From Tragulus kanchil (Eukaryota; Chordata; Mammalia; Artiodactyla; Tragulidae), in contig JAIOJX010000003.1 of NCBI GenBank assembly GCA_022376925.1, forward strand, positions 37,625,874 through 37,689,873: DNA of 64,000 bases. Direction: 5' to 3'. Positions 1,092 through 62,785 of this stretch are shown here, one piece after another (position 1 is the stretch's first letter; each line of letters begins with the position of its first letter). The translations under genes were made by a program, and so were the position numbers. Under the pieces are notes generated by a model. It did no database searches. It was not told where the DNA came from and saw only the letters and a list, made by a program, of their open reading frames with translations.

Positions 1092-3362
1092 GGTCATGGA
1101 GGGAATTACAGTGGCATAGAGAAAATATTTTTAATTGAATGCAAGTAAAATACCATTTTCAAAATTTGCAGGTTTCTGTTAAAGTGTGCTTAGAGGGAAA
1201 TGTTCATCCTTAAAAATGAATATACTAAAAATAGCTGAAAAGCTGAAAATCAATCACCTAGTATCCATCTGTATTAATTTAAGAGAACAGCAAATTAAAC
1301 TTAATGAATATAGAATACAAGAATGATTACAAGGCAATAAATAAATATAAAAGATTAACTAAACAATGGATACACATTTGGTGAGATTAATCAAGAATGA
1401 AAAGAGAGAAGACACAATGTCAGAAGTTTAAAAGAAAACATTAAATAGGTTAGAAAAGTGTAATAAGAATTTGGTAAAGAAATAATCCAATGTATCTAAT
1501 AAAAGACATTTCTAGCATGATATAACTTACCAAAACAAAGCTAGATAAAGCTAGAAAAATCTTTGTAATTATTTCTACCAAAAGAAAACTGTGGACTACT
1601 CCAGAGGCTTCCATTAGTGGCATACCAAATATGAAAGTAGGAAATGCCAATTTTGCTCTTCCTGAAAATAGAAAACCGAGCAATTTAATCTTTGAAACAA
1701 AAATAACAAGCATATGTGAACAAACTTAACAGAATTTTTATAAGGAAATAATCATTGAAATAAAATACTTAATGGATGAATTCAGCAAAACACAGACATA
1801 ACTGGGGAAAAGGTTAGTAAGACTAGAATATAGAGGTAGGGAAATTACCCAAGTGACAACACAGAAAAACAAAAGATAAAAAGTATGAACACACGATAAT
1901 TGAGGGGGTCGAATCTAACAATATAACATATCACTGTCCCAGAAACAAAAATAGAATGAAGAAGGGAGCTCATAATTTGCCAGAGCTGATGAAAGGTACA
2001 GACTCAAAGACACAGAGAACACATGAGAACAGACACAGAGAACTTCCTCAAGGCAGGATGACAAAAAGAAATATAGACTCAGTAAATCTGTAGAAAGCCT
2101 GAGGGAAAAGGAAGCCAGAGAGGAAGAACAAATTACTTACAAAGAACAACACTTTGTCACCAGACTTCTTAAAAAATTGAAAGCCAGATGATAACAGAAT
2201 AAAATTTTTGAAGTGCCTACAGAAAACGGTCATGGAGGGAATTACAGTGGCATAGAGAAAATATTTTTAATTGAATGCAAGTAAAATACCATTTTCAAAA
2301 TTTGCAGGTTTCTGTTAAAGTGTGCTTAGAGGAAATGTTCATCCTTAAAAATGAATATACTAAAAATAGCTGAAAAGCTGAAAATCAATCACCTAGTATC
2401 CATCTGTATTAATTTAAGAGAACAGCAAATTAAACTTAATGAATATAGAATACAAGAATGATTACAAGGCAATAAATAAATATAAAAGATTAACTAAACA
2501 ATGGATACACATTTGGTGAGATTAATCAAGAATGAAAAGAGAGAAGACACAATGTCAGAAGTTTAAAAGAAAACATTAAATAGGTTAGAAAAGTGTAATA
2601 AGAATTTGGTAAAGAAATAATCCAATGTATCTAATAAAAGACATTTCTAGCATGATATAACTTACCAAAACAAAGCTAGATAAAGCTAGAAAAATCTTTG
2701 TAATTATTTCTACCAAAAGAAAACTGTGGACTACTCCAGAGGCTTCCATTAGTGGCATACCAAATATGAAAGTAGGAAATGCCAATTTTGCTCTTCCTGA
2801 AAATAGAAAACCGAGCAATTTAATCTTTGAAACAAAAATAACAAGCATATGTGAACAAACTTAACAGAATTTTTATAAGGAAATAATCATTGAAATAAAA
2901 TACTTAATGGATGAATTCAGCAAAACACAGACATAACTGGGGAAAAGGTTAGTAAGACTAGAATATAGAGGTAGGGAAATTACCCAAGTGACAACACAGA
3001 AAAACAAAAGATAAAAAGTATGAACACACGATAATTGAGGGGGTCGAATCTAACAATATAACATATCACTGTCCCAGAAACAAAAATAGAATGAAGAAGG
3101 GAGCTCATAATTTGCCAGAGCTGATGAAAGGTACAGACTCAAAGACACAGAGAACACATGAGAACAGACACAGAGAACTTCCTCAAGGCAGGATGACAAA
3201 AAGAAATATAGACTCAGTAAATCTGTAGAAAGCCTGAGGGAAAAGGAAGCCAGAGAGGAAGAACAAATTACTTACAAAGAACAACACTTTGTCACCAGAC
3301 TTCTTAAAAAATTGAAAGCCAGATGATAACAGAATAAAATTTTTGAAGTGCCTACAGAAAAC
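1092..3362 (+). repeat. D1: direct tandem duplication, ~1,136 bp unit
   Basis: Copy 1 is 1092-2227 and copy 2 is 2228-3362, abutting directly. Both begin 'ggtcatggagggaattacag' and end 'gtgcctacagaaaac'. The copies are near identical. A visible difference is a one-G deletion about 100 bp into copy 2, which changes the offset from 1136 to 1135. The unit consists mostly of degraded L1. Confidence 0.97.
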
Positions 3363-3415
3363 AACTGTTAACTAGAATTGAGTATTCAGCAACTTGTCTG
3401 AAAATAAAATAAGTG
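1100..3415 (+). mobile_element. Degraded L1 fragments (old L1M/HAL-like), duplicated by D1
   Basis: Positions ~1170-1800 (and again ~2310-2940) read like a heavily diverged L1 ORF2 segment, with blocks such as 'gtgcttagagggaaatgttc', 'agagaacagcaaattaaac' and 'agagagaagacacaatgtc'. Positions ~1960-2225 and ~3095-3415 resemble another L1 portion ('ctgatgaaaggtacagactc', 'aactgttaactagaattgag'). No long open frame survives. Subfamily is not resolved. Confidence 0.6.
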
Positions 3416-3419
3416 GAGG

Positions 3420-3652
3420 GGGCTTCTCTGGTGGTCCAGTGGGTGAAGAGTCCACCTTGCAGTGCAAGGGGCACTGGTTCGATCCCTGGCCTAGGAAGAT
3501 CCCACATGCTACAGAGTAGTTGGGCCAGTGTGTCTAATCAGGAGCCAAGCTCCAGATCTCATGTGCCCAGAGCCAGTGGTCTGCAAGGAGAGAAGTCACT
3601 GCAATGGGAGGCCCACACATGCCAAAGAATAAATATGGATGAAAACAAATGG
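3420..3652 (+). mobile_element. CHR-2-like tRNA-derived SINE
   Basis: A head 'ggcttctctggtggtccag', the B-box-like 'ggttcgatccctggcctagg', 'gaagatcccacatgctacag' and the tail 'ggaggcccacacatgccaaagaataa' match the CHR-2-type cetartiodactyl SINE seen several more times here. It appears inserted within L1 debris that resumes downstream. Confidence 0.85.
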
Positions 3653-3837
3653 TGACTCAGAGGCAAAAAAAAAGGAGAGATTGAATCAAATACATGTTCA
3701 GATACAGAAAGTCTGAGTTCTTTTACTCCTGATCAACTTCACAAAAGAAATATGCAAACGTTTTCTTCAAGAAGGAAAGTGATCTTACAAGGAATATGCA
3801 AAAATAATCATGATAAAAGAAATTGGTAAGTATAACA
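3653..3837 (+). mobile_element. L1 debris downstream of the SINE
   Basis: A short 'aggagagattgaatcaaatac' segment and following A-rich sequence look like continuation of the L1 fragment interrupted at about 3420. Weak evidence. Confidence 0.4.
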
Positions 3838-4068
3838 CATTAGTTATCTAATGCTGAGTAACAATCCCCAAACTTCACTCAATAACCTTTATTTCTCGAA
3901 GCGTCTGTGAACCAGCAATTTGGAAGTGACTTGGAAAGGTAGTTCTTGTCTGGGATCAGTCATGAGGTTGTCATCATCTGCACGCTGGGGTTGCAGTCAT
4001 ATGAAGAAATGCCTGTAGCTAGAGGATGCACTTCCCAGGTGGCTCATTTGCATAACTTTAAAGTTGGT

Positions 4069-4092
4069 GCGTGTGTGTGTGTGTGTGTGTGT
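4069..4092 (+). repeat. (GT)n microsatellite
   Basis: About 12 GT units, immediately next to the 3' side of a minus-strand Bov-tA. This is the usual place for a microsatellite seeded by a SINE tail. Confidence 0.9.
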
Positions 4093-4264
4093 ATCCTTAG
4101 CTGTGCAGTTGTGCCTGATTCTCTGTGATCCCATGGACTCTAGTACAAAAGGCAGAATACTGGAGCAGGATGACATTTCCTATTTCAGGGGATCTTCCTG
4201 AACAAGGGATTGAACTCAAGTCTCTTGCATCTCCTGTGATACCTCTAGCACCACCTGAGAAGCC
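4093..4264 (-). mobile_element. Bov-tA SINE, minus strand
   Basis: On the minus strand the sequence reads the Bov-tA consensus. On the plus strand 'gatcccatggactctagtac', 'ggatcttcctgaacaagg' and 'accacctgagaagccca' are the reverse complements of its tail, middle and head. It interrupts an older repeat. Confidence 0.85.
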
Positions 4265-4449
4265 CATAAAGTTGGAACTGATACCAAATCTCTTTAATAG
4301 TTTTCAGATGTCGTGACAACATGGAGGCCAGATTCTCTCAGAACAGTGATTCAAGACGTCAAGGTGAAAATTAAGATGTCATTATGACCTAACCTTGGTG
4401 GTCACATCCCACTGGACAATGAAATATGATAGAAATTATTCTGTTGTAT

Positions 4450-5286
4450 CAGTAATCACAGTAAGTACAAGAAGAATAAATCTGCTTGTTAAAAGATCGA
4501 CACTGTCAATTTGGCTACAATAAGTGAAATTTAACTATATTAAACATAAGAACATAAAAAGTTAAAGAAACAGTTGGAAAAACATGTATGTAAATGTAAG
4601 AAAAATGCAAAATGAACAAATTTTAAAATGTGTAGCTATATTAATATGAAAATGTGGAATAGCAAAAAATAAACCTTTTAAAAATCTAAAAGAAACTCAA
4701 CTTGTTTATTTATTTATATACATTTTTGGTGCCAACATCTCCATAACTATTGACTATTAAATGCAATTTAACAGATAAAAGACAAATCCAACAGTATGTC
4801 TATTTTCCACAGTTTAATCTTATTGGTTCAGTGAAATTGCCATCAAAATCCCAACAGATTTTATTTTTAAACCTTGACAAGCAGATTCTAGTATTTCATT
4901 GAAATAGGAAATGTTGAATAATAGCCAGGAGTTTCCTGAAGAAGAATACTGTGGAAACATCCCCTGGAATATTCCAAGACACATTACAAAGCTATTGTAT
5001 TACCCAGAAATAGAGATGCTGTCCAACTGATCTGAATAGAGACCAGAAACAGCCCATGAATATCCAGAAACTACATATGACATGTGGCCTTGTAAATCAC
5101 TGGAAAAAGAATAGACTAAACAATAAATGGGGCCAGGACATTTGTTTATCCCTCTAGGAAAAAGGCAAGATTGGATTCCTACCTTGTATCTTGTACTAAA
5201 ATAAATTCCAGATGGATTAAAGACTCAAATATGAAAGACAACACTTCAAAGCATTCGAAGAAAAGATTTTGGTGGATATTTTAAGA
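4450..5286 (+). mobile_element. Degraded L1 ORF2 3' part
   Basis: Blocks such as 'gccatcaaaatcccaacaga', 'gacaagcagattctagtatt', 'gggaacatttgttt'-like 'ggccaggacatttgtt' and 'ccagatggattaaagactc' occur in the order of the C-terminal part of L1 ORF2, with many mutations. The second copy in D2 is at about 5564-6400. Confidence 0.6.
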
Positions 5287-5288
5287 TT

Positions 5289-5480
5289 TGGAGCCTCTCT
5301 CGTGGCTCAGACAGTAAAGAATCTGCCTACAGTGCAGGAAATCTGGGTTTACTCTCTGGGTCAGGGACATCCTCTGGATAAGGGAATGGCTACCCAGTCC
5401 AGTATTCTTGCCTGGAGAATTCCACAGATAGAAGATGGCCTCGGCTTACAGTCAGGACATGACTGAGTGACTAATATTTT
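5289..5480 (+). mobile_element. Bov-tA SINE (first D2 copy)
   Basis: Contains 'ctctcgtggctcagacagta', 'aatctgcctacagtgcagg' and 'ccagtattcttgcctggag', the Bov-tA order. It accounts for the 65-codon frame here. The same insertion is at 6403-6594, identical in position within the unit, so it is one insertion present in both D2 copies. Confidence 0.9.
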
Positions 5481-6402
5481 CACTCTAAGATGTCATTATG
5501 ACCTAACCTTGGTGGTCACATCCCACTGGACAATGAAATATGATAGAAATTATTCTGTTGTATCAGTAATCACAGTAAGTACAAGAAGAATAAATCTGCT
5601 TGTTAAAAGATCGACACTGTCAATTTGGCTACAATAAGTGAAATTTAACTATATTAAACATAAGAACATAAAAAGTTAAAGAAACAGTTGGAAAAACATG
5701 TATGTAAATGTAAGAAAAATGCAAAATGAACAAATTTTAAAATGTGTAGCTATATTAATATGAAAATGTGGAATAGCAAAAAATAAACCTTTTAAAAATC
5801 TAAAAGAAACTCAACTTGTTTATTTATTTATATACATTTTTGGTGCCAACATCTCCATAACTATTGACTATTAAATGCAATTTAACAGATAAAAGACAAA
5901 TCCAACAGTATGTCTATTTTCCACAGTTTAATCTTATTGGTTCAGTGAAATTGCCATCAAAATCCCAACAGATTTTATTTTTAAACCTTGACAAGCAGAT
6001 TCTAGTATTTCATTGAAATAGGAAATGTTGAATAATAGCCAGGAGTTTCCTGAAGAAGAATACTGTGGAAACATCCCCTGGAATATTCCAAGACACATTA
6101 CAAAGCTATTGTATTACCCAGAAATAGAGATGCTGTCCAACTGATCTGAATAGAGACCAGAAACAGCCCATGAATATCCAGAAACTACATATGACATGTG
6201 GCCTTGTAAATCACTGGAAAAAGAATAGACTAAACAATAAATGGGGCCAGGACATTTGTTTATCCCTCTAGGAAAAAGGCAAGATTGGATTCCTACCTTG
6301 TATCTTGTACTAAAATAAATTCCAGATGGATTAAAGACTCAAATATGAAAGACAACACTTCAAAGCATTCGAAGAAAAGATTTTGGTGGATATTTTAAGA
6401 TT

Positions 6403-6594
6403 TGGAGCCTCTCTCGTGGCTCAGACAGTAAAGAATCTGCCTACAGTGCAGGAAATCTGGGTTTACTCTCTGGGTCAGGGACATCCTCTGGATAAGGGAA
6501 TGGCTACCCAGTCCAGTATTCTTGCCTGGAGAATTCCACAGATAGAAGATGGCCTCGGCTTACAGTCAGGACATGACTGAGTGACTAATATTTT
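6403..6594 (+). mobile_element. Bov-tA SINE (second D2 copy)
   Basis: Same element and same flanks as 5289-5480, offset by exactly 1,114 bp. Confidence 0.9.
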
Positions 6595-6605
6595 CACTCT
6601 AAGAT

Positions 6606-7061: not shown

Positions 7062-7456
7062 CAGTTATGGACTAAATTCTGTCCCCTCCCAACAATTGCT
7101 GCTGATTCCTAACCTTCAGTGCCTCAGAATGTAACTTTATATGAAGACAGGGCCTTTAAAAGGTAATAAGCTAAAAGAAACTTTTAGGGTGGGGCCTAAT
7201 GCAATATCATGTCCTTATACAAAGAGATTAAGACACAGGAAAGGCACCAGAGATGTGTGCACACAGAAAAGGGGCCAGAGTGTGGGGACAGTGAGAAGGT
7301 GGCGTCTGCAAACCAAGGGGAGAGGCCTCAGGAGAAACCAGATCTGACTACACCTTGATCTTGGGATCAGGGCCTCCAGAACTGTGAGAAAACACATCTC
7401 TATGCCTTTAGCCATCCAGTCTGAGGTATTCTGTTATGGCAGGCCTAGGAAGCTGA
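7062..7456 (+). mobile_element. MLT1-type (ERVL-MaLR) solo LTR, old
   Basis: In order: 'atggactaaattctgtcccc', 'gacagggcctttaaaaggta', 'gggtggggcctaatgcaata', 'gtgtgcacacagaaaaggg', 'acaccttgatcttgggatca', 'cctccagaactgtgagaaaa' and 'ggtattctgttatggcaggc'. This matches the MLT1 LTR consensus from end to end at ancient divergence. It is a noncoding long terminal repeat with no attached internal retroviral sequence. D3 duplicates its 3' half. Confidence 0.8.
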
Positions 7457-7527
7457 TATGCTCACCCCCTTCAACAGGGAAGAAAAATGAAAACAATCCA
7501 AATATCCACCTATAGGAAAATGGACTT

Positions 7528-7822
7528 TCTTTCCTGGTGGTCCGGTCCAGTGATTAAAAATCCACCTGCCAATGCAGGGTACATGGATTTGATCTCTGGT
7601 CAGGAGGACCCCACATGCCAGGAGAAAGCTAAGCCCAGGCACCATAACTACTGAGCTCGAGCTGTAGAGCCTGCATGCCACAGGGACTGAAATCTGGGTG
7701 CCCTGGAGAGCCCATGCTCCACAACAAGAGAAGTCACCACAATGAGAAGGGCACACACCACAAGTAGAGAGAGCTCCTGTGCAGCCACAAAGATCTAACA
7801 CAGCCAAAAATTAAAAACAAAA
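7528..7822 (+). mobile_element. CHR-2 SINE, near full length
   Basis: Runs 'ttcctggtggtccggtccag', 'gatttgatctctggtcagga', 'ccataactactgagctcgag', 'ccatgctccacaacaagag' and ends 'acagccaaaaattaaaaac', the complete order of the CHR-2 consensus. The minus-strand frame of 120 codons here is a by-product of the SINE. The duplicate is at 8675-8969. Confidence 0.88.
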
Positions 7823-7834
7823 CAAAAAAACTTT

Positions 7835-8430
7835 GCAGTAAAGGGAAACTTAATCCCTAATACTTTATGATTTCAATTCCCCAAATTCAGAAGAGAGAAT
7901 CAGATTCAACTCCGAAACACAGGCAAAGACGAGTCCCACTTGGGTTAGCTACAAAAGGTTAAAATGAAGCATCAGTCTGAGATCTAATGGCATGTGAAAT
8001 AGTGGTTCCATCTAATCCCCACTGTTACAGGAAATACCGTTTTTCTACTCATAAAAGTGAAATGAACCTCTGACAAAAATTCTATACGCTCTCCTGTGCT
8101 GCATTTTCTTCATCTGATTTTGGTTTAGGTCTCTTGTATTTCCTGCAGTGAGAAGGATGTGAGAATCAGGATATGTGTACAGTAGTCAGAATTTAAAACC
8201 TGCTGTAGTGAAGTTTATTTCAATCTATTTAATGTCCTTCCTCTGGTTGATACATCTTAGTTTCTAGGCAGACTAAGATGACTTGCTCAGGCTCAAGCAA
8301 GACTTGAATGTCAGAGTCCAGGGCTTTGATTTGCAGGAGTTTTGGAGGGTGGATATTATTACAACAGTCATCAATCAAAATTTATAAGATTTGGTACATC
8401 TTTGTAGAGTAAGGCAAAATTCACTATAGC
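7835..8430. other. Unassigned sequence, copied at ~8,980-9,545
   Basis: No repeat family, gene or RNA could be recognised in this sequence, nor in its D3 duplicate. Confidence 0.5.
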
Positions 8431-8435
8431 AATTT

Positions 8436-8603
8436 ACCAGAGATGTGTGCACACAGAAAAGGGGCCAGATTTCAGGAGAAACCAGGACCCCTGACTACAC
8501 CTTGATCTTGGGATCAGGGCCTCCAGAACTGTGAGAAAACACATCTCTATGCCTTTAGCCATCCAGTCTGAGGTATTCTGTTATGGCAGGCCTAGGAAGC
8601 TGA
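8436..8603 (+). mobile_element. MLT1-type LTR, partial (second D3 copy)
   Basis: Repeats only the 3' part of the LTR at 7062-7456, starting exactly at the D3 junction and carrying the 43-bp internal deletion. It is not an independent insertion. Confidence 0.8.
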
Positions 8604-8674
8604 TATGCTCACCCCCTTCAACAGGGAAGAAAAATGAAAACAATCCAAATATCCACCTATAGGAAAATGGACTT

Positions 8675-8969
8675 TCTTTCCTGGTGGTCCGGTCCAGTGA
8701 TTAAAAATCCACCTGCCAATGCAGGGTACATGGATTTGATCTCTGGTCAGGAGGACCCCACATGCCAGGAGAAAGCTAAGCCCAGGCACCATAACTACTG
8801 AGCTCGAGCTGTAGAGCCTGCATGCCACAGGGACTGAAATCTGGGTGCCCTGGAGAGCCCATGCTCCACAACAAGAGAAGTCACCACAATGAGAAGGGCA
8901 CACACCACAAGTAGAGAGAGCTCCTGTGCAGCCACAAAGATCTAACACAGCCAAAAATTAAAAACAAAA
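8675..8969 (+). mobile_element. CHR-2 SINE (second D3 copy)
   Basis: Same element and flanks as 7528-7822, offset 1,147 bp. Confidence 0.88.
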
Positions 8970-9487
8970 CAAAAAAACTTTGCAGTAAAGGGAAACTTAA
9001 TCCCTAATACTTTATGATTTCAATTCCCCAAATTCAGAAGAGAGAATCAGATTCAACTCCCGAAACACAGGCAAAGACGAGTCCCACTTGGGTTAGCTAC
9101 AAAAGGTTAAAATGAAGCATCAGTCTGAGATCTAATGGCATGTGAAATAGTGGTTCCATCTAATCCCCACTGTTACAGGAAATACCGTTTTTCTACTCAT
9201 AAAAGTGAAATGAACCTCTGACAAAAATTCTATACGCTCTCCTGTGCTGCATTTTCTTCATCTGATTTTGGTTTAGGTCTCTTGTATTTCCTGCAGTGAG
9301 AAGGATGTGAGAATCAGGATATGTGTACAGTAGTCAGAATTTAAAACCTGCTGTAGTGAAGTTTATTTCAATCTATTTAATGTCCTTCCTCTGGTTGATA
9401 CATCTTAGTTTCTAGGCAGACTAAGATGACTTGCTCAGGCTCAAGCAAGACTTGAATGTCAGAGTCCAGGGCTTTGATTTGCAGGAG

Positions 9488-11800
9488 TTTTGGAGGGTGG
9501 ATATTATTACAACAGTCATCAATCAAAATTTATAAGATTTGGTACTGAGGACTTTTTAATCTAATAAATAATTAGTAGAGTAAGGCAAAATTCACTATAG
9601 ATGAGACAGCAATGAACTAATTTATTTAAGCTAGTCTTTTCTATTATTCTTAAGTAATTAATGTTTGTACTGTTAGTATAAATAAACATATTTAAGGAGG
9701 TAAGATTTGAGGATTACGTGTAGTAAAAACGATAGGTTAGCAACTATTAATTGTGGTTAAACATGCTACAAATTAAAAAGAGAAAATAAAGAACTAAACT
9801 GTTGAACTCTATTTAATCGGCTTTGCTACCAAAAGTTATATTTTGTGTATCGACCGTAGATAAAGAAAATTGTTTCAGCTAGAATTTGACAATAGAAGCA
9901 ACTATTTGCATAAACAGAATTGTTTCCAGAATTAAACTTGTACAAATAAACAAGAAGTATATTTCCTTGTTATAACAAGGACCAAACATCATAGAAACAA
10001 TCCTTAATTCTATGTGTAGAGGAAATGGACTCTGTCTTTATGATGTGCTCTCTGAATCTACTCAACCAGCACTTCTTTACGTCTGGTGGCAAGTCAGGCA
10101 CCATTCCTAGAAGTGAAGATTTAAAAATTAAAAAGTATGTGTCGCCAAGATGGAAAAATGAACAGTTATCATCATCTAGTCAACTGTGATCAAGTTACAC
10201 AAAATTCAATCACTAACAACTGAGTTAGATTAGGGAGCAATTAGATTAGGGAAGAGTGGTCCAGTTGACTCTTTAAAATAATGCCTGTGGTGGCAGGAAA
10301 GGGATCGTAGGCGGATGAGGGGCCCCGTAAGGGGACAGAACCTTTCAGGTAGAGGAGCTATAGGGTGATTCATTAAATAAAGAAAATTCAGTCTTGAAAA
10401 TACATGAAATTGAGACTCAGAAAATAAAAAATAACAGATTATCCACTTGGTATTAGGGGAGAACTAGATCCTAACTTGTAACTGACTTCAAAAATGACCA
10501 GGTTCTCCTTGTAGCATCTTCCACTTTAACAATGCTGATTCTCCCCTAAGTCGCCCGCTGTATTGACTGTCCCTTCCTCCACTCTAATAAACTTTACTTT
10601 CCTCTCAAAAACAACCAATGACCAGAAACTCAGCTGCTTTTAAAAATCTGTGTCAGTTCCAGTCCTGTTTTTTGGAGGGTGGATATTATTAAAATATTAA
10701 AGAGGTAAAAAGATAAGGCAAAATTCACTATAGATGAGACAGCAATGAACTAATTTATTTAAGCTAGTCTTTTCTATTATTCTTAAGTAATTAATGTTTG
10801 TACTGTTAGTATAAATAAACATATTTAAGGAGGTAAGATTTGAGGATTACGTGTAGTAAAAACGATAGGTTAGCAACTATTAATTGTGGTTAAACATGCT
10901 ACAAATTAAAAAGAGAAAATAAAGAACTAAACTGTTGAACTCTATTTAATCGGCTTTGCTACCAAAAGTTATATTTTGTGTATCGACCGTAGATAAAGAA
11001 AATTGTTTCAGCTAGAATTTGACAATAGAAGCAACTATTTGCATAAACAGAATTGTTTCCAGAATTAAACTTGTACAAATAAACAAGAAGTATATTTCCT
11101 TGTTATAACAAGGACCAAACATCATAGAAACAATCCTTAATTCTATGTGTAGAGGAAATGGACTCTGTCTTTATGATGTGCTCTCTGAATCTACTCAACC
11201 AGCACTTCTTTACGTCTGGTGGCAAGTCAGGCACCATTCCTAGAAGTGAAGATTTAAAAATTAAAAAGTATGTGTCGCCAAGATGGAAAAATGAACAGTT
11301 ATCATCATCTAGTCAACTGTGATCAAGTTACACAAAATTCAATCACTAACAACTGAGTTAGATTAGGGAGCAATTAGATTAGGGAAGAGTGGTCCAGTTG
11401 ACTCTTTAAAATAATGCCTGTGGTGGCAGGAAAGGGATCGTAGGCGGATGAGGGGCCCCGTAAGGGGACAGAACCTTTCAGGTAGAGGAGCTATAGGGTG
11501 ATTCATTAAATAAAGAAAATTCAGTCTTGAAAATACATGAAATTGAGACTCAGAAAATAAAAAATAACAGATTATCCACTTGGTATTAGGGGAGAACTAG
11601 ATCCTAACTTGTAACTGACTTCAAAAATGACCAGGTTCTCCTTGTAGCATCTTCCACTTTAACAATGCTGATTCTCCCCTAAGTCGCCCGCTGTATTGAC
11701 TGTCCCTTCCTCCACTCTAATAAACTTTACTTTCCTCTCAAAAACAACCAATGACCAGAAACTCAGCTGCTTTTTAAAAAAATCTGTGTCAGTTCCAGTC
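9488..11800 (+). repeat. D4: direct tandem duplication, 1,133 bp offset
   Basis: Copy 1 is ~9488-10664 and copy 2 ~10669-11800. The main body matches without shift from 9581/10714 onward ('taaggcaaaattcactatag'). The first ~45 bp of copy 2 keeps 'ttggagggtggatattatt' from 9489 but has lost about 50 bp after it. The 'ttggagggtggatattatt' word occurs three times (8342, 9489, 10672), so D3 and D4 overlap. Confidence 0.95.
9546..10664. other. Unassigned AT-rich sequence with a GC-rich island and a polyA-signal-like 3' part
   Basis: Mostly AT-rich. A short GC-rich patch lies at about 10,303-10,340 ('ggatgaggggccccgtaagg'). Near 10,585 'cactctaataaactttac' follows a pyrimidine-rich stretch and resembles an LTR or processed-transcript 3' end, but I cannot identify a family. 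Duplicated at ~10,714-11,800. Confidence 0.4.
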
Positions 11801-15652: not shown

Positions 15653-15689
15653 AACTGAATCAGTTTTCATATGGTGAGGTTGGTGATTG

Positions 15690-16720
15690 GGAAAGAAAAG
15701 TCAGAAAGTCTACCTTCTTTACTTTCAGGTTGGTCACCACATCAGATTTTTCAGTTTTCCTTTGGTGTTCTGTTCTTTCCATGGAAGTTCTGCTTTACTT
15801 TTTTCTCTTTTCCTCCCATATGTGTAAGGGATTTAAAAAAAAAAAAATGTTGGAAAATGTCTTCGTGGAAGCACTAACTTGCATGGGCCTCTAAGATGCT
15901 GCTTGTGCTAAAGAAATTGGATACAGAATTTGTCTTCTCTCTCACACATTTAAAAGGATTTTGTCTGTTTTCCTTTATCCAAGAAAGGGCACTGAAGAAA
16001 TGACATATTAAGCAGAAAAACAAACACATGTGACCTCACACTCTATAATTCAGAGATAGGAAATGGGGTACCTGGCAGACTAAAACAAGCTGTGGAACAT
16101 TTGCTAGAGCTACCAGCATGCCCCAGAGTTGTTTAAATGAGATGTACTGCTGAGTGTCCTGTCCTGAGATTAGTCTGTCTGGACATCAAAAGTGAAGCAC
16201 AGACGGGCTTTGTTGCAGCTTTGTCAACACAACATATTTTCGAGTTTTCCTCTAGTGTTCTGTTCTTTCCAATGAGTCTCTGACTTACATTTTTTTTACC
16301 CCCACATGTGTAAGGGAGTTTTTTGTTTGTTTTTAATTTTTGGCCTCTTTCATTTTATTTTCATCCATCTTTATTCTTTGGCTTGTGTGGGCCTCCCACT
16401 GCAGTGGCTTCTCTCATTGCAGAGCACTGGCCCTTGGTGCATGTGCTCTAGAGCTCCGGCTCACAATTGGACACATGGGTACAGAGGCTCTGTGGCATGT
16501 GGGATCTTCCTGGGGTAGGGATTGAACTGGTACCCCTTGCACTGCAAGGCAGATTTTTTACCCACTGGACCACCAGGGAAGCCTTGTAAGGTAGTTTTAA
16601 AAAAGAATGTTAGAAAAAGAAAATGTCCCCATGAAAACTCTAGGTGGGATGTCTAAATTTCTAATAGGGAAATCTGTCTCCCTTAGTAGATAACTGGGCA
16701 AGTCACATACCCACTCTGGA
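15690..16720 (+). repeat. Older, diverged ~0.49 kb repeat pair inside the D6 unit
   Basis: 'gttttcctttggtgttctgttctttcc' near 15,755 pairs with 'gttttcctctagtgttctgttctttcc' near 16,242. 'catatgtgtaagggattt' near 15,820 pairs with 'cacatgtgtaagggagtt' near 16,304, and 'atgttggaaaatgtcttcgtgg' with 'gaatgttagaaaaagaaaatgtcccc' once the SINE at 16340-16583 is removed. Divergence is clear, so this duplication is older than the SINE and unrelated to the ~1.1 kb units. Confidence 0.65.
16340..16584 (-). mobile_element. CHR-2-like SINE, minus strand, with target-site duplication
   Basis: Plus-strand words 'ttcatccatctttattctttgg', 'tgtgggcctcccactgcag' and 'ggaccaccagggaagcc' are the reverse complement of the CHR-2-like SINE. 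The flanks 'tgtaagggagttt' (16309) and 'tgtaaggtagttt' (16585) form a target-site duplication with one mismatch. Duplicate at 17502-17746. Confidence 0.9.
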
Positions 16721-20542: not shown

Positions 20543-20554
20543 ACAAAAATCAAA

Positions 20555-21300: not shown

Positions 21301-21407
21301 CATGAGGACTTTCAGATGGGGAGCCGCAAGGAGTCGATCAGGATGTACTCACAGAAAGAGGGCAAAGCTAAGTCTTATATGTTTAGAGAGGAGGGATAAA
21401 GGAGATA

Positions 21408-49600: not shown

Positions 49601-49700
49601 GAAATGTCATTGTATTTTTGCAAGAATATGCAAATTTGTATGCAAATTTAAGAGGAGAGGATTAGCTGATTCTCTGGAGAAAGTATCCAAAAGAAGACTT

Positions 49701-51886: not shown

Positions 51887-53732
51887 TTGTATTCAAAGAG
51901 GATATTGCCAACAGGGACAGTTGGTTGAAGAAGTATTAATTTAGGGTTTTGTGGGTAGGGAATCAGGGTATCCAGATGAGTTCAGATAAAGTCAAAAATT
52001 ACAGAGTATTTGATCAAACCTGAAATAAGTATGTGTGTCTAATAAGTATAGGTGTCTAATGGGACACTATAATCTCAGGAATGACACTAATCAACATATG
52101 GGTGAGATACTGTCTGTTGATACTGAGTACCAACCTTCTAAAAGTACTAAGTACCTTACCCTTCTAAGATCCTCCCTATATATACATTTCCCAACCTCCT
52201 TTGCTGCATGGTTTAAATTAAGAGGTTGAGTCACATAAGATTTGATGGACAGAATTAAGGTCAATTTTTTGCTTCTAGTAGTAACAGGTAAGATGTTCAG
52301 TCAACTGTAGACATAAGGTTTGTAGTATCCTCTGGATGAGCTTTTGAAGCAAGCATCTATAGTAAACAACAACAGAAAACACAGATAATCACTTTAAAAT
52401 CAGGACCAATATTTATCATTACCCTGATTGAACCCATATGGATACTTCATTGGTCTTGCATGCTCAGTCACTCAGATGTAAATCAATCTTTGTGACTGTA
52501 GCCTGCCAGGCTTTTCTGTCCATAGGAGTTTTCAGGCAAGAATACTGGAGTGGGTTTTCATTTCCTTCTCCAGTGGATCTTCCCGACTCAGGGATTAAAC
52601 CTATGTTTCCTGCATCCAGAATTAGACAAATGTCCAAGCTCATTGAAATGGTGACAGATAATATATTTGAAAACTGCATGAAGTCCATCTGCGAATAATC
52701 AAATTAAGCCTTTAAAGACAGAGAGCACTCTTGACAAGATTCAAATCAATTCCATGAATGATTCAATAAACTGACAGAGTTTCGGTTATCCAAACCCACC
52801 TAGCCAGTCTTGAAAACACGTTAATCTTCTTGCATAGAAATGCGACCCAAGAGAAATGGGGCTGTATTAATTTGGTCTGTTGCTAAGGGAAGTGCTGGCT
52901 GAGTTTTACAGCTCACTTTCCCACTGTTGTAGTAGAAGGCAATGAAATAGAGAGGATATAAATCCTCTCTGCTGGGACAGTTTTGGAAAGGAGTTTTTAC
53001 GCCATTTTGTATTCAAAGAGGATATTGCCAACAGGGACAGTTGGTTGAAGAAGTATTAATTTAGGGTTTTGTGGGTAGGGAATCAGGGTATCCAGATGAG
53101 TTCAGATAAAGTCAAAAATTACAGAGTATTTGATCAAACCTGAAATAAGTATGTGTGTCTAATAAGTATAGGTGTCTAATGGGACACTATAATCTCAGGA
53201 ATGACACTAATCAACATATGGGTGAGATACTGTCTGTTGATACTGAGTACCAACCTTCTAAAAGTACTAAGTACCTTACCCTTCTAAGATCCTCCCTATA
53301 TATACATTTCCCAACCTCCTTTGCTGCATGGTTTAAATTAAGAGGTTGAGTCACATAAGATTTGATGGACAGAATTAAGGTCAATTTTTTGCTTCTAGTA
53401 GTAACAGGTAAGATGTTCAGTCAACTGTAGACATAAGGTTTGTAGTATCCTCTGGATGAGCTTTTGAAGCAAGCATCTATAGTAAACAACAACAGAAAAC
53501 ACAGATAATCACTTTAAAATCAGGACCAATATTTATCATTACCCTGATTGAACCCATATGGATACTTCATTGGTCTTGCATGCTCAGTCACTCAGATGTA
53601 AATCAATCTTTGTGACTGTAGCCTGCCAGGCTTTTCTGTCCATAGGAGTTTTCAGGCAAGAATACTGGAGTGGGTTTTCATTTCCTTCTCCAGTGGATCT
53701 TCCCGACTCAGGGATTAAACCTATGTTTCCTG
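51495..53732 (+). repeat. D18: direct tandem duplication, 1,120-1,121 bp unit
   Basis: Copy 1 is 51495-52615 and copy 2 is 52616-53732. Start 'ccagaattagacaaatgtcc', which also occurs at ~50,403, so D17 and D18 overlap. Copy 1 stops inside a minus-strand Bov-tA. Confidence 0.97.
52458..52612 (-). mobile_element. Bov-tA SINE, minus strand, cut at the D18 junction
   Basis: Reads tail to middle and stops at 'tatgtttcctg', where D18 copy 2 starts. The complete element is 53578-53776. Confidence 0.9.
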
Positions 53733-54667: not shown

Positions 54668-56920
54668 TTCTTCTCTCTTCTAGTATGGCTACTAGATAGC
54701 AACCAACAGTGTCTGCTATAACACACAGTTTTCCCATCTCTTTTTCTGTTCTTCCTAGAAAATTCCATAACCATATGGCTCTGAATTCAATATATGAGAG
54801 ATGAAATGAGCATTAAATTTCCATATGGAACTGTTTTCTCTTCTGTATCTCCATGCTCTTTTATGCTTTCAGACTTTCATATATGCTCTTGTATCTGCTT
54901 ATCATTCCTCTATCTATTGCTTTTTTTTTTTTAAACCTTTATTTTGCTTTTAGCTTTTACAGAGTTTTGTTGTTTACAGATATGAATGTTCCCCGATTAG
55001 TCATATGTATATCCAAGGCCTGCACTATCATAAGTGAAGAAAATAGCTCTAGTCATTGCTCTGTGAGAAAAGGGGATCCTTCAGGGGTGCTGTGTGATGG
55101 TTGGGAGGGGTGGGAAGGGGGGGATATCTATTGCTTTTCATTCAGGATTTAACCAATGGGATTTCATCCATTTATTCATTCACTTTGCACCTGACAAATG
55201 TCTGTCTATGATAAGCCAGGCATATAAAAATCATGAAGGTAAGTATAGACACTGCCAATGATGGAAGAGAAGAAGAATGAAGCAACACTCAAATAAATAG
55301 TGAGTCCTAATATGGAGAATTCATCTGAGCTTTGAGTTACCAATGTCACCTAAGTTAGAAGGCTGACCTTGTTGGAGGAGGTGATGCTTCAGTGGTCTCT
55401 GGAAAAGGTCACAAAGGTAGGAGGAAAGAGTGGCTGTTCCAGGCTGGGCAGAGTCCCGAGAGAATATGGTTCCTTCAGGAACATTCAATGGTAAAGCCTG
55501 AGTCCCATTCAGTGGTTAGAGAGAAATCACCTCTTAACACCCTCATGGAGATTTTATATCAGTCTTAGTAGGTTTGTTATATGTGAATGTTTTATAAGCT
55601 ATCCTATACAAATCAGTGAGTTATTATGTATTAGTGAAAAAAGCAAGAGATTGGAGTTCGATGTATATTTGATTTCTGACACTTTCACTCATTCTGTAAT
55701 TTTAGGCAAGATAGTCCCCTTCATTGAAGGTCTTTCTTATCTGTAAAAGTAGAAATTCAAAATAAGTTAGAATTTGCAAACAAATGGCTTGGGTTTTCTT
55801 CTCTCTTCTAGTATGGCTACTAGATAGCAACCAACAGTGTCTGCTATAACACACAGTTTTCCCATCTCTTTTTCTGTTCTTCCTAGAAAATTCCATAACC
55901 ATATGGCTCTGAATTCAATATATGAGAGATGAAATGAGCATTAAATTTCCATATGGAACTGTTTTCTCTTCTGTATCTCCATGCTCTTTTATGCTTTCAG
56001 ACTTTCATATATGCTCTTGTATCTGCTTATCATTCCTCTATCTATTGCTTTTTTTTTTTTAAACCTTTATTTTGCTTTTAGCTTTTACAGAGTTTTGTTG
56101 TTTACAGATATGAATGTTCCCCGATTAGTCATATGTATATCCAAGGCCTGCACTATCATAAGTGAAGAAAATAGCTCTAGTCATTGCTCTGTGAGAAAAG
56201 GGGATCCTTCAGGGGTGCTGTGTGATGGTTGGGAGGGGTGGGAAGGGGGGGATATCTATTGCTTTTCATTCAGGATTTAACCAATGGGATTTCATCCATT
56301 TATTCATTCACTTTGCACCTGACAAATGTCTGTCTATGATAAGCCAGGCATATAAAAATCATGAAGGTAAGTATAGACACTGCCAATGATGGAAGAGAAG
56401 AAGAATGAAGCAACACTCAAATAAATAGTGAGTCCTAATATGGAGAATTCATCTGAGCTTTGAGTTACCAATGTCACCTAAGTTAGAAGGCTGACCTTGT
56501 TGGAGGAGGTGATGCTTCAGTGGTCTCTGGAAAAGGTCACAAAGGTAGGAGGAAAGAGTGGCTGTTCCAGGCTGGGCAGAGTCCCGAGAGAATATGGTTC
56601 CTTCAGGAACATTCAATGGTAAAGCCTGAGTCCCATTCAGTGGTTAGAGAGAAATCACCTCTTAACACCCTCATGGAGATTTTATATCAGTCTTAGTAGG
56701 TTTGTTATATGTGAATGTTTTATAAGCTATCCTATACAAATCAGTGAGTTATTATGTATTAGTGAAAAAAGCAAGAGATTGGAGTTCGATGTATATTTGA
56801 TTTCTGACACTTTCACTCATTCTGTAATTTTAGGCAAGATAGTCCCCTTCATTGAAGGTCTTTCTTATCTGTAAAAGTAGAACAATTATGAAGCTCCAAA
56901 ATAAGTTAGAATTTGCAAAA
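54668..56920 (+). repeat. D19: direct tandem duplication, 1,128 bp unit
   Basis: Copy 1 is 54668-55795 and copy 2 is 55796-~56920. Start 'ttcttctctcttctagtatg'. The last ~45 bp of copy 1 differ from copy 2 ('gtagaaattcaaaataag' versus 'gtagaacaattatgaagctccaaaataag'), right beside the join. Confidence 0.97.
55103..55123 (+). repeat. G-quadruplex-type motif
   Basis: Four G-runs with one- and two-base loops (ggg a gggg t ggg aa ggggggg). Identical at 56231-56251 in the second D19 copy. Confidence 0.7.
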
Positions 56921-57114
56921 CACCAAGTGGCTGACTCATAATGAATTTTTAACAAATATTACCTCTCTTCCTTCTACCTCAGTATTAACTTCGGGTATTA
57001 ATTTCTTGAAATTCTCTCTTTACTTGGCACCATGATTCTCTGTCTTCTAGTTCTCAGCCTCAGTACCATAACTGCTCCTTTTGGTCTCCACCATGGATTT
57101 CCTTCCATGGATGC

Positions 57115-57285
57115 TCAGGAAGATCCCTGGAGGAGGGCATGGCAATCCACTCTTCTTCATCACCGATTCAGTGGACAAGAGATTGAGCAACCTCTGATAG
57201 ATGGTGAAGGACAGAGAAGCCTGGTGTGCTGCCGTCCATGGAATCACAAAAAGTTGCACATGTCTGAGCAACTGAACACCACCAC
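57115..57285 (+). mobile_element. BovA-type SINE (first D20 copy)
   Basis: 'gaggagggcatggcaatcca', 'gatagatggtgaaggacaga' and 'agcctggtgtgctgccgtcc' match the BovA body. Second copy at 58191-58360 with several point differences. Confidence 0.87.
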
Positions 57286-57404
57286 CACCAAGCTGCACAT
57301 GAGGTCTCCAGAACCTTACATCTTATAACTGAAAGTGATCAATAACTCTCATTTAACATACTCTCCAGTCTCTGGTAAATAACATTTTGCTGTTACTAGG
57401 AATC

Positions 57405-57575
57405 TGAGTTTTTTTATTTTATTTTTAGATTTCAGGCAATACAAGTGAGATCATGCAATGCTTGTCATTCTGTGGTTAGCTTATTTCACTTAGCATAGTG
57501 TCTTTCATTTGCATCCAAATTGTGGCAAGTGGAAGAATATCTTCTTTCTCATGCATGAATAATATTCCATTATAT
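57405..57575 (-). mobile_element. L1 fragment, minus strand, cut at the D20 junction
   Basis: 'acaagtgagatcatgcaatg' and 'gcatgaataatattccatta' are the reverse complement of the L1 3' region; it continues only in the next copy at 58480 onward. Confidence 0.82.
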
Positions 57576-58190
57576 GTTAGAAGGCTGACCTTGTTGGATT
57601 GCTTCAAAAGGTCACAAAGGTAGGAGGAAAGAGTGGCTGTTCCAGGCTGGGCAGAGTCCCGAGAGAATATGGTTCCTTCAGGAACATTCAATGGTAAAGC
57701 CTGAGTCCCATTCAGTGGTTAGAGAGAAATCACCTCTTAACACCCTCATGGAGATTTTATATCAGTCTTAGTAGGTTTGTTATATGTGAATGTTTTATAA
57801 GCTATCCTATACAAATCAGTGAGTTATTATGTATTAGTGAAAAAAGCAAGAGATTGGAGTTCGATGTATATTTGATTTCTGACACTTTCACTCATTCTGT
57901 AATTTTAGGCAAGATAGTCCCCTTCATTGAAGGTCTTTCTTATCTGTAAAAGTAGAACAATTATGAAGCTCCAAAATAAGTTAGAATTTGCAAAACACCA
58001 AGTGGCTGACTCATAATGAATTTTTAACAAATATTACCTCTCTTCCTTCTACCTCAGTATTAACTTCGGGTATTAATTTCTTGAAATTCTCTCTTTACTT
58101 GGCACCATGATTCTCTGTCTTCTAGTTCTCAGCCTCAGTACCATAACTGCTCCTTTTGGTCTCCACCATGGATTTCCCTTCCATGGATGC

Positions 58191-58360
58191 TCAGGAAGAT
58201 CCCTGGAGGAGGGCATGGCAATCCACTCTCTTCTTCATCACCGATTCAGTGGACATGAGTTTGAGCAAGCTCTGATAGATGGTGAAGGACAGAGAAGCCT
58301 GGTGTGCTGCCGTCCATGGAATCACAAAAAGTTGCACATGTCTGAGCAACTGAACACCAC
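58191..58360 (+). mobile_element. BovA-type SINE (second D20 copy)
   Basis: Same insertion as 57115-57285; reads 'gtggacatgagtttgagcaagctctg', closer to the BovA consensus than copy 1 ('gtggacaagagattgagcaacctctg'). Confidence 0.87.
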
Positions 58361-58682
58361 CACCACCAAGCTGCACATGAGGTCTCCAGAACCTTACATC
58401 TTATAACTGAAAGTGATCAATAACTCTCATTTAACATACTCTCCAGTCTCTGGTAAATAACATTTTGCTGTTACTAGGAATCTGAGTTTTTTTATTTTAT
58501 TTTTAGATTTCAGGCAATACAAGTGAGATCATGCAATGCTTGTCATTCTGTGGTTAGCTTATTTCACTTAGCATAGTGTCTTTCATTTGCATCCAAATTG
58601 TGGCAAGTGGAAGAATATCTTCTTTCTCATGCATGAATAATATTCCATTATATGTAAATACGCCACACATTTTCTTCCCCGT

Positions 58683-58696
58683 CCCCCCCCCCCCCC
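58683..58696 (+). repeat. Poly-C tract (14 C), D21 copy 1
   Basis: In D21 copy 2 the same tract at 59778-59798 has about 21 C, with the preceding 'ccgt' lost. Confidence 0.9.
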
Positions 58697-58787
58697 ACAT
58701 TTTCTTGATCCATTTATCTGTTGACAGACACAGGTTGTTTCCATGTCTTGGATTTTTTTTTTTTTTTTTACCACTTTTGTTTTTTTA

Positions 58788-58908
58788 ATTATTTATTTAT
58801 TTGGCTGCGCTGGGTCTTAGTTGTGGCATGTGGGATCTAGTTCCCCGACCAGGGATCAAACCTGAGTCTCCTGCATTGGAAACACAACTGGACCACCAGG
58901 GAAGTCCC
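58788..58908 (-). mobile_element. CHR-2 SINE, minus strand, nested in L1, with target-site duplication
   Basis: 'tttggctgcgctgggtctta', 'gatctagttccccgaccagg' and 'ggaccaccagggaagtccc' are its reverse complement. 'tgtcttggat' at 58744-58753 and 58909-58918 is a perfect 10-bp target-site duplication. Copy at 59889-60009. Confidence 0.92.
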
Positions 58909-59670
58909 TGTCTTGGATGTTTTGAATAATGACGAAAGAATTTGGGAATACAGATAATCTCTTCAAGATACTGATTTAGTTTCTTTTGGATATATACCCA
59001 GAAGTGGGATTGTTGGATTTAGTAGTTCTGTTCACAGTTTTTTGAGAAGACTCTGTACTGTTTTCCACAGTAACTGCACCATTTATATTACCAGCAGCAC
59101 TACACAGGGTTCACTTTTCTTCATAACATCTTTAACACATGTTAACTTCTGACTTATTAATAACAGCCATTTTAGGAAGTGTGTGGTATTTTATGGTAGT
59201 TATGATTTGCATTTTCCTGGTTATTAGTGATGGTGGGAAGCCTTTCATTTACCTGTTGGCCATTTGTGCATCTTTGGAAAACTGTTCAGATTCTTCACCA
59301 ATTTCTAACTGAATTCCTCCTGAATTGTATGACTTCCTTATACATTTTGTATATTAACTCATGTAAGATATATGGCTGGCAAATATCTTCTACCATTTCA
59401 TAGGTTTCCTTCACATTTTGTGGATTGCAACCTTTGCTGTGCAGAAAGTTTTTAGTTTTATGTAGTCCCACTTATTTATTTTCACTTTTGTTGCTTGTGC
59501 CTTTGGTGTCGATTTCAAGAATGATTGCTAAAATCAAAGAGCTTTTCCTTGTATTTTCTTCTATGAATTTTACCATTTCATGACTTATGTATGTCTTTAA
59601 TCCATTTTGAGTTCCTTTTTTACATATGCTATAAGATAAGGAAGACTGTCTTTCATGCATTCGGATTTTA

Positions 59671-60760
59671 AGCATAGTGTCTTTCATTTGCATCCAAATT
59701 GTGGCAAGTGGAAGAATATCTTCTTTCTCATGCATGAATAATATTCCATTATATGTAAATACGCCACACATTTTCTTCCCCCCCCCCCCCCCCCCCCCAC
59801 ATTTTCTTGATCCATTTATCTGTTGACAGACACAGGTTGTTTCCATGTCTTGGATTTTTTTTTTTTTTTTTACCACTTTTGTTTTTTTAATTATTTATTT
59901 ATTTGGCTGCGCTGGGTCTTAGTTGTGGCATGTGGGATCTAGTTCCCCGACCAGGGATCAAACCTGAGTCTCCTGCATTGGAAACACAACTGGACCACCA
60001 GGGAAGTCCCTGTCTTGGATGTTTTGAATAATGACGAAAGAATTTGGGAATACAGATAATCTCTTCAAGATACTGATTTAGTTTCTTTTGGATATATACC
60101 CAGAAGTGGGATTGTTGGATTTAGTAGTTCTGTTCACAGTTTTTTGAGAAGACTCTGTACTGTTTTCCACAGTAACTGCACCATTTATATTACCAGCAGC
60201 ACTACACAGGGTTCACTTTTCTTCATAACATCTTTAACACATGTTAACTTCTGACTTATTAATAACAGCCATTTTAGGAAGTGTGTGGTATTTTATGGTA
60301 GTTATGATTTGCATTTTCCTGGTTATTAGTGATGGTGGGAAGCCTTTCATTTACCTGTTGGCCATTTGTGCATCTTTGGAAAACTGTTCAGATTCTTCAC
60401 CAATTTCTAACTGAATTCCTCCTGAATTGTATGACTTCCTTATACATTTTGTATATTAACTCATGTAAGATATATGGCTGGCAAATATCTTCTACCATTT
60501 CATAGGTTTCCTTCACATTTTGTGGATTGCAACCTTTGCTGTGCAGAAAGTTTTTAGTTTTATGTAGTCCCACTTATTTATTTTCACTTTTGTTGCTTGT
60601 GCCTTTGGTGTCGATTTCAAGAATGATTGCTAAAATCAAAGAGCTTTTCCTTGTATTTTCTTCTATGAATTTTACCATTTCATGACTTATGTATGTCTTT
60701 AATCCATTTTGAGTTCCTTTTTTACATATGCTATAAGATAAGGGAAGACTGTCTTTTATT
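59671..60760 (-). mobile_element. L1 and nested CHR-2 SINE (second D21 copy)
   Basis: Same L1 and same SINE insertion as 58570-59650, including the 10-bp target-site duplication. Not an independent insertion. Confidence 0.9.
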
Positions 60761-61020
60761 ATTTCACAGTAACCAATGGCTTCTGAGGTGTCTTAAAATT
60801 GTGATATTTTCAAAGAGGCATTATCTGTAGCTTATCTATGCTTATTCATATATATGCAAATGAAGCTAAACCAGAGTTTCCTCTTTTTTTTTTATGCACA
60901 TAAAAGAAAATCAACCAGGTCTCTGAATTATAAGCCTCAGTTAACTAGAAGGCAACAAAAATATGCTGGAAGCCAACAAATGTTTTTTCTGCCTTTGATT
61001 CTACATTTTTTTTTTCCAAA

Positions 61021-61281
61021 TTTTGGCCTCTTTTATTATTTTATTTATTTATTTATTTTCATCCATCTTTATTCTTTGGCCTGTGTGGGCCTCCCACTGC
61101 AGTGGCCTCTCCTTGCAGAGCTCCAGCTCTGGGTGCACGCACTCCAGAGCAGTGGCTCGTAATTGGACACACTGGTCCAGCCACTCTGTAGCATGTAGGA
61201 TCTTCCCAGGCCAGGGATAGAACCAGTGCACCTTGCACTGCAAGGCTGACTCTCTACCCACTGAACCACCAAGGAAACCCT
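61021..61281 (-). mobile_element. CHR-2-like SINE, minus strand (first D22 copy)
   Basis: 'ttcatccatctttattcttt', 'gtgggcctcccactgcagtg' and 'ctgaaccaccaaggaaacc' are the reverse complement of the CHR-2-like element. It accounts for the frames at 61023-61272. Second copy at 62220-62478. Confidence 0.9.
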
Positions 61282-61587
61282 CTACCTTCTTTTTAAAACT
61301 GACATTGTTAATGTGGGTTCAGGGTGAGGCTACGGTCATTGTGCTATGGATGATACGGCTTCCTTTTTACCAAAGCTCCACCCAGAGTTGTATTTTTCAG
61401 CCACATTGCTCTTCTTGAGGCAGGAGAAGTCCTGGATATTTCTCGCCTGGAATTTCATCTGAACTACTGTACCTTGGCAATTCATATTTATGATCAGAAA
61501 AGTGTCCAGTTGTGCAAATGTCTGAGGATGTTGGTGAGAGAAGCCTCAATATGGAATTTCTTTACACACTTTTTTTACTTTACCTAT
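61282..61587. other. Unassigned sequence (copied at 62479-62785)
   Basis: No gene or repeat recognised. Confidence 0.45.
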
Positions 61588-61610
61588 AAAAAAGTAATTT
61601 TTTAATTTTT

Positions 61611-61950
61611 GAATTCCTCCTGAATTGTATGACTTCCTTATACATTTTGTATATTAACTCATGTAAGATATATGGCTGGCAAATATCTTCTACCATTTCA
61701 TAGGTTTCCTTCACATTTTGTGGATTGCAACCTTTGCTGTGCAGAAAGTTTTTAGTTTTATGTAGTCCCACTTATTTATTTTCACTTTTGTTGCTTGTGC
61801 CTTTGGTGTCGATTTCAAGAATGATTGCTAAAATCAAAGAGCTTTTCCTTGTATTTTCTTCTATGAATTTTACCATTTCATGACTTATGTATGTCTTTAA
61901 TCCATTTTGAGTTCCTTTTTTACATATGCTATAAGATAAGGGAAGACTGT
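61611..61950 (-). mobile_element. L1 fragment, minus strand (third staggered copy)
   Basis: Repeats the segment at 59312-59650 and 60413-60755, starting at the D22 junction. Confidence 0.88.
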
Positions 61951-62219
61951 CTTTTATTATTTCACAGTAACCAATGGCTTCTGAGGTGTCTTAAAATTGT
62001 GATATTTTCAAAGAGGCATTATCTGTAGCTTATCTATGCTTATTCATATATATGCAAATGAAGCTAAACCAGAGTTTCCTCTTTTTTTTTTATGCACATA
62101 AAAGAAAATCAACCAGGTCTCTGAATTATAAGCCTCAGTTAACTAGAAGGCAACAAAAATATGCTGGAAGCCAACAAATGTTTTTTCTGCCTTTGATTCT
62201 ACATTTTTTTTTTCCAAAT

Positions 62220-62478
62220 TTTGGCCTCTTTTATTATTTTATTTATTTATTTATTTTCATCCATCTTTATTCTTTGGCCTGTGTGGGCCTCCCACTGCAG
62301 TGGCCTCTCCTTGCAGAGCTCCAGCTCTGGGTGCACGCACTCCAGAGCAGTGGCTCGAATTGTAAACACAGGTCCAGCCTCTCTGTAGCATGTAGGATCT
62401 TCCCAGGCCAGGGATAGAACCAGTGCACCTTGCACTGCAAGGCTGACTCTCTACCCACTGAACCACCAAGGAAACCCT
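62220..62478 (-). mobile_element. CHR-2-like SINE, minus strand (second D22 copy)
   Basis: Same insertion as 61021-61281 with a short divergent patch near 62,356-62,372. Confidence 0.9.
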
Positions 62479-62785
62479 CTACCTTCTTTTTAAAACTGAC
62501 ATTGTTAATGTGGGTTCAGGGTGAGGCTACGGTCATTGTGCTATGGATGATACGGCTTCCTTTTTACCAAAGCTCCACCCAGAGTTGTATTTTTCAGCCA
62601 CATTGCTCTTCTTGAGGCAGGAGAAGTCCTGGATATTTCTCGCCTGGAATTTCATCTGAACTACTGTACCTTGGCAATTCATATTTATGATCAGAAAAGT
62701 GTCCAGTTGTGCAAATGTCTGAGGATGTTGGTGAGAGAAGCCTCAATATGGAATTTCTTTACACACTTTTTTTACTTTACCTATA

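Follow-up and report, generated by a model that had tools for sequence, protein, structure and literature searches.

Near-fixed ~1.1-kb tandem duplications in a 64-kb window are almost certainly contig overlaps left untrimmed

What process would write arbitrary stretches of about 1.1 kb twice in tandem, time after time along one piece of DNA? The window, meaning the whole 64,000-base stretch analysed here, contains 22 direct tandem duplications (Table 1), all at the places and at about the offsets that an earlier sequence-only reading had reported. Copy 1 measures 1007-1184 bp (mean 1111, SD 43, n=22), and the start-to-start offset of the copies is 1069-1198 bp (mean 1126, SD 37, n=22). The copies lie side by side at all 22 sites, and 46,417 of the 64,000 bases fall inside duplicated stretches. 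That reading had also called the duplications independent. Not all of them are separate, though: at 10 of the 21 places where two duplications are neighbours, the second copy of the earlier one runs 36-438 bp into the first copy of the later one, so the shared stretches are present three times.

Table 1. Positions, joins and copy-to-copy identities of the tandem duplications (window coordinates).
Dup	Span	Strand	Copy 1	Copy 2	Join	Identity	Remarks
1	1092..3362	+	1092-2227	2228-3362	exact abutment	0.9991	
2	4372..6605	+	4372-5491	5486-6605	6 bp common to both	identical	
3	7246..9600	+	7246-8429	8436-9600	6 bp filler	0.9381	indels by both tips
4	9488..11800	+	9488-10664	10670-11800	5 bp filler	0.9543	several indels by copy 2 start
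5	11752..13998	+	11752-12861	12893-13998	31 bp filler	0.9919	
6	15653..17950	+	15653-16788	16815-17950	26 bp filler	identical	
7	18149..20409	+	18149-19261	19297-20409	35 bp filler	identical	filler start is a noisy extension of post-copy-2 sequence
8	20473..22614	+	20473-21546	21542-22614	5 bp common to both	0.9991	
9	22772..24940	+	22772-23838	23873-24940	34 bp filler	0.9981	
10	24722..26809	+	24722-25728	25802-26809	73 bp filler	0.9990	
11	28511..30841	+	28511-29664	29679-30841	14 bp filler	0.9923	13/14 filler bases equal those preceding copy 1
12	32295..34558	+	32295-33422	33431-34558	8 bp filler	identical	
13	34171..36343	+	34171-35244	35269-36343	24 bp filler	0.9944	mid-copy G-rich run differs
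14	35988..38150	+	35988-37058	37078-38150	19 bp filler	0.9972	filler start is a noisy extension of post-copy-2 sequence
15	38115..40395	+	38115-39253	39252-40395	2 bp common to both	0.9913	
16	42189..44371	+	42189-43280	43280-44371	1 bp common to both	identical	
17	49699..51877	+	49699-50784	50791-51877	6 bp filler	0.9991	
18	51493..53732	+	51493-52612	52614-53732	1 bp filler	0.9991	
19	54668..56919	+	54668-55780	55796-56919	15 bp filler	0.9902	
20	56482..58655	+	56482-57577	57576-58655	2 bp common to both	0.9773	indels by copy 2 start
21	58570..60743	+	58570-59641	59671-60743	29 bp filler	0.9972	filler start is a noisy extension of post-copy-2 sequence
22	60412..62785	+	60412-61588	61610-62785	21 bp filler	0.9958	

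The pattern lies far above chance level. The window holds 23,150 repeated 24-mers, whereas 20 Markov-1 simulations each gave 0. Among 30-mers present 2-6 times, the distances between successive occurrences gather in the 1000-1099 bp (6,980) and 1100-1199 bp (15,812) bins, with 9 at 0-99 bp, 46 at 2200-2299 bp and all other bins empty; the control count, of 30-mers whose reverse complement also lies in the window, is 51. A satellite or tandem repeat array was rejected, since every unit has a different sequence and is present twice, or three times in part, and a transposon origin was likewise set aside because the duplicated units all differ in sequence and because interspersed repeats, detected by self-comparison of the window with no repeat library, cover ~10% of it and occur at only 3/22 copy-2 starts, 5/22 copy-1 ends and 2/22 midpoints.

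Global alignment of the 22 pairs gives copy-to-copy identities of 93.8-100%, with 14 pairs above 99.5% and five identical to the letter. Pooled over all pairs, 22 substitutions occur in 24,515 aligned columns. None of these substitutions is isolated, each lying no more than 30 bp from another difference. The lowest identities belong to duplications 3, 4 and 20 and arise mainly from indels near the tips. The largest indel between copies is ~46 bp, so no copy has gained an ordinary-size transposable element since duplication.

Differences also concentrate at the inferred tips of the pieces that meet at the joins. Within 110 bp of a tip, a limit picked after the difference positions were known, lie 13 of the 25 difference events, where ~5 would be expected (binomial p 0.0003); seven are at start tips and six at end tips. 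The other 12 events are away from tips. Two sites, near 11775 and 51548, are each present three times, and at both the neighbour pieces agree while the middle piece differs, so tip noise is not the cause of every difference. Since each of these sites was counted twice, a hand recount leaves 23 separate sites and changes the tip fraction to 12/23. Another locus is present three times: one copy closes piece 3 (ending at 8429), one is internal to piece 4 (ending at 9600) and one opens piece 5 (starting at 10670). The internal copy exceeds both others in length, and the two tip copies each have a different portion of it missing or replaced.

The joins themselves take three forms: a filler of 1-73 bp at 16 of 22, exact abutment at one, and 1-6 bp common to both copies at five. 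Each of the 15 fillers of at least 5 bp was compared with the flank of its own join, with the flanks of the 21 other joins as controls. Five of the 15 match their own flank better than all 21 controls (~0.7 expected), and a match above every control is absent in the remaining ten. The window contains 0 N bases, with no marked assembly gap at any join.

These features are almost certainly the product of an assembly error, not of biology, in which overlapping contigs were joined end to end with the overlap left in. The sequence-only reading had proposed untrimmed overlaps of ~1.1 kb, and the follow-up supports this: the overlaps form a tiled chain, start tips and end tips alike carry surplus differences, five of the 15 fillers tested extend a flank, and elsewhere the copies are nearly the same. 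We infer that these pieces are contigs, with boundaries placed from the tip differences and fillers; the ends of these putative neighbours align at 22/22 joins over 1007-1184 bp. The window would then consist of 23 contigs, or pieces assembled locally, set in a row and derived from one continuous genomic stretch of ~39 kb; the 21 that are closed would measure 1.8-7.5 kb, and adjacent pieces would have ~1.1 kb of sequence in common. A scaffolding or gap-filling step would have ordered the pieces, missed the overlap and written them end to end without N, so that each overlap appears twice.

The density of the duplications, their near-constant length and the absent N gaps suggest a single processing step. 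Overlap lengths have a coefficient of variation of 0.038, versus 0.46 for the lengths of the 21 closed pieces, and one algorithmic step may have set the overlap length. In the simplest version, each contig would have been extended ~550 bp outward on both sides and the ends then abutted to close the gap, possibly by assembling read pairs locally, no further out than one insert length. A hard-to-sequence break at the overlap midpoint gained no support: by homopolymer length, 3-mer entropy and G+C, neither midpoints nor tips are enriched in homopolymers, low-complexity sequence or extreme G+C, which leaves the extension of original contig ends without direct support. Overlaps that taper above a minimum-overlap threshold were also rejected, because an exponential tail starting at 1000 bp describes the lengths poorly (KS p 0.0008, scale from data); a normal spread is compatible with them (Shapiro p 0.56). 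This same length distribution is in keeping with a different origin within the same class of artefact, in which the overlap has roughly the length of a single corrected read or a single fixed flank and comes from a long-read assembler, or from a gap-filler that keeps anchor sequence, instead of from two-sided extension. Such an origin is a serious possibility that we hold tentatively, but start and end tips differ about equally, which suits two-sided extension somewhat better.

Explanations outside the untrimmed-overlap reading fare far worse. Heterotype false duplication, in which the tandem copies would come one from each parental haplotype, has a precedent in the chicken, chimpanzee and cow assemblies, where Kelley and Salzberg put overlapping contig ends down to differences between haplotypes (PMC2864568). 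It is nevertheless very improbable here: the copies are too similar, given their few and never isolated substitutions and the five identical pairs, and a haplotype cause leaves the length unfixed. In the consulted text of that study, the duplicated overlapping contigs (DOCs) are attributed to heterozygosity and are of lower identity, with a median of 98.1% and few contigs above 99.5%, unlike the window, where most pairs (14/22) exceed 99.5% and overlap length is almost constant. A rolling-circle or template-switch artefact in library preparation would produce tandem reads with copies of similar length whatever the content, yet it predicts clean joins, against the flank-continuing fillers, and occasional units with three or more full copies, whereas no unit here reaches three. 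The chaining of 10/21 neighbouring duplications as overlapping tiles also argues against it, and this origin is scarcely credible.

A real, very recent process in the genome or cell sample that tandemly duplicates arbitrary ~1.1 kb stretches would account for copies that are present in the sequence and for joins without N. It would have to act at roughly one event per 1.8 kb of original sequence, giving 22 events in ~39 kb, all too recent for isolated substitutions, each of near-equal length and with differences clustered at the joins; moreover, no copy has gained an ordinary-size transposable element. Such a process is extremely unlikely, and the genome-wide fixed-length duplication of a new kind that the sequence-only reading had raised, should the copies be real, is without positive support in the window sequence.

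Contig ends that overlap and are falsely duplicated have already been described in print (PMC8081667, PMC2864568, PMC5632298; Ko et al.), so the pattern does not lack a known cause. On the portions of these reports drawn on here, the anatomy of the window appears similar to that of contig-boundary false duplications of the 'homotype' kind and to that of 'duplicated overlapping contigs'. It shares with the homotype false duplications of the Vertebrate Genomes Project (Rhie et al. 2021, PMC8081667), as presented in those portions, near-identical tandem copies at apparent contig boundaries, a roughly constant length and substitutions that are never isolated. Unlike them, the window packs 22 duplications into 64 kb without gaps, whereas the legend there shows a gap between copies; likewise, the cited text of Ko et al. 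places a gap between most false duplications, against 0 N here. The Sanger and Illumina assemblies discussed by Korlach et al. 2017 (PMC5632298) offer a further likeness in spurious tandem copies beside gaps with low-quality gap edges, but the cases in the consulted part of that paper surround single genes in two bird genomes, with no regular series described. A regular series of ~1.1 kb duplications was not found in the portions of the literature searched, which is no proof of its absence from print.

If the duplications are artefacts, ~39% of the window is surplus sequence (24,777 of 64,000 bases by summed offsets). Should the rest of the assembly be alike, its size and repeat content would be inflated, as would its counts of tandem duplications, its exon duplications and its copy-number calls. 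The near-fixed ~1.1 kb offset offers an easy signature for flagging this record and others similarly made.

Beyond the duplications, a ruminant-type SINE/BovB tail motif, allowed up to 4 mismatches, occurs at 8 sites, and two pairs of these are duplication copies; this agrees with the ruminant origin proposed in the sequence-only reading without proving it. Seven stop-to-stop frames of at least 130 aa are present, several of which look SINE-derived in the light of ruminant repeats. Rfam models at gathering thresholds have 0 matches in the window.

A repeated-word search of the window detected 22 direct tandem duplications (dups 1-22, numbered along the window, each with a left copy 1 and a right copy 2), confirming both the sites and the approximate offsets proposed in the sequence-only reading. 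Copy 1 measures 1007-1184 bp (mean 1111, SD 43), the start-to-start offsets range from 1069 to 1198 bp, and the duplicated stretches cover 46,417 of the 64,000 bases. Base counts give no N and a G+C content of 37%. Repeated 24-mers number 23,150, versus none in 20 Markov-1 simulations. When 30-mers with two to six occurrences are considered, the distances between successive occurrences occupy only four bins: 0-99 (9), 1000-1099 (6,980), 1100-1199 (15,812) and 2200-2299 (46), the last representing two offsets added together. For another 51 30-mers it is the reverse complement that recurs in the window, perhaps owing to palindromic TA/AT tracts.

Structurally, the window can be read as 23 pieces, or inferred assembly units, in which each piece ends with the ~1.1 kb that opens its successor. 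Once the offsets are subtracted, 39,223 bases of single sequence remain. The 21 closed pieces span 1,782-7,505 bp, with a coefficient of variation of 0.46 for piece length versus 0.038 for overlap length. At 10 of the 21 neighbouring duplication pairs, 36-438 bp are present three times, because the intervening piece is short enough for its two overlaps to meet. The longest stretch free of all 22 duplications (44372-49698, ~5.3 kb) falls inside the 7,505-bp piece, the longest of the set.

The copies differ by 22 substitutions in 24,515 aligned columns across the 22 pairs, five of which are identical, and no substitution stands more than 30 bp from a further difference. Merging differences no more than 30 bp apart yields 25 events, 13 of them within 110 bp of a piece end, or tip (seven at start tips, six at end tips), versus about 5 expected (binomial p 0.0003, for a limit of 110 bp chosen after the data had been seen). 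The sites near 11775 and 51548 each enter this tally twice, since the stretches around them occur three times over; with each taken once, 12 of 23 sites are at tips. The clearest case of tip noise is the locus shared by the end of piece 3, the interior of piece 4 and the start of piece 5. The longest of its three copies is the inner one; each tip copy has a different part of this either missing or replaced. Near 11775 and 51548, both neighbouring pieces agree and the middle piece differs, which counts against a pure tip-noise account; pieces seem to carry consensus errors of their own away from tips.

At the 22 joins between copies, 16 contain a filler of 1-73 bp, one is a direct abutment and five share 1-6 bp. 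Each of the 15 fillers of at least 5 bp was scored against two flanks, the one following copy 2 and the one preceding copy 1, both for its own join and for the 21 others. Own flanks outscore those of all other joins in five fillers (dups 6, 7, 11, 14 and 21; ~0.7 expected) and do not exceed all 21 in the remaining ten. In dup 11, 13 of 14 filler bases match those preceding copy 1; in dups 7, 14 and 21 the opening of the filler is a noisy rendering of the bases downstream of copy 2. Such flank-like fillers are expected if a low-quality piece end runs slightly beyond the alignable overlap.

Tiling, tip differences and fillers support the earlier proposal that overlapping contigs were placed end to end, with which the features of the window agree, and the ~1.1 kb duplications very probably do not exist in the genome itself. 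They resemble what Rhie et al. 2021 (PMC8081667) term homotype false duplications, which often lie where contigs meet and have roughly the length of the reads. Duplicated overlapping contigs are also described by Kelley and Salzberg 2010 (PMC2864568), and Korlach et al. 2017 (PMC5632298) describe erroneous tandem duplications adjoining gaps whose edges carry low-quality bases. Between the kinds of false duplication outlined by Ko et al., the second is closer to the window. In practical terms, the duplications serve as a quality warning for the source assembly.

The overlap lengths are spread as a normal distribution would allow (Shapiro p 0.56). We infer one algorithmic length behind them. An exponential tail above 1000 bp is incompatible with these lengths (KS p 0.0008, scale estimated from the data). 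Each side could have been extended by ~550 bp, or a single flank or read of ~1.1 kb could have been used. The two-sided tip differences lean somewhat towards extension on each side; overlap midpoints and tips show no special composition and give that option no direct support. Trimming the 21 closed pieces by half of every overlap leaves cores of which the shortest group together at 678-819 bp (678, 713, 718, 719, 794 and 819), a possible sign that contigs had to reach a minimum length before being extended.

Microsatellite tracts are common sites of assembly breaks; none of the three dinucleotide tracts in the window lies within a duplicated stretch.

Simple repeats in the window
Feature	Position	Detail
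Dinucleotide microsatellite	480-519	~20 copies
Short AAAAC tract	38278-38304	inside a duplicated stretch
Dinucleotide microsatellite	41401-41445	~22 copies
Dinucleotide microsatellite	45232-45280	~24 copies
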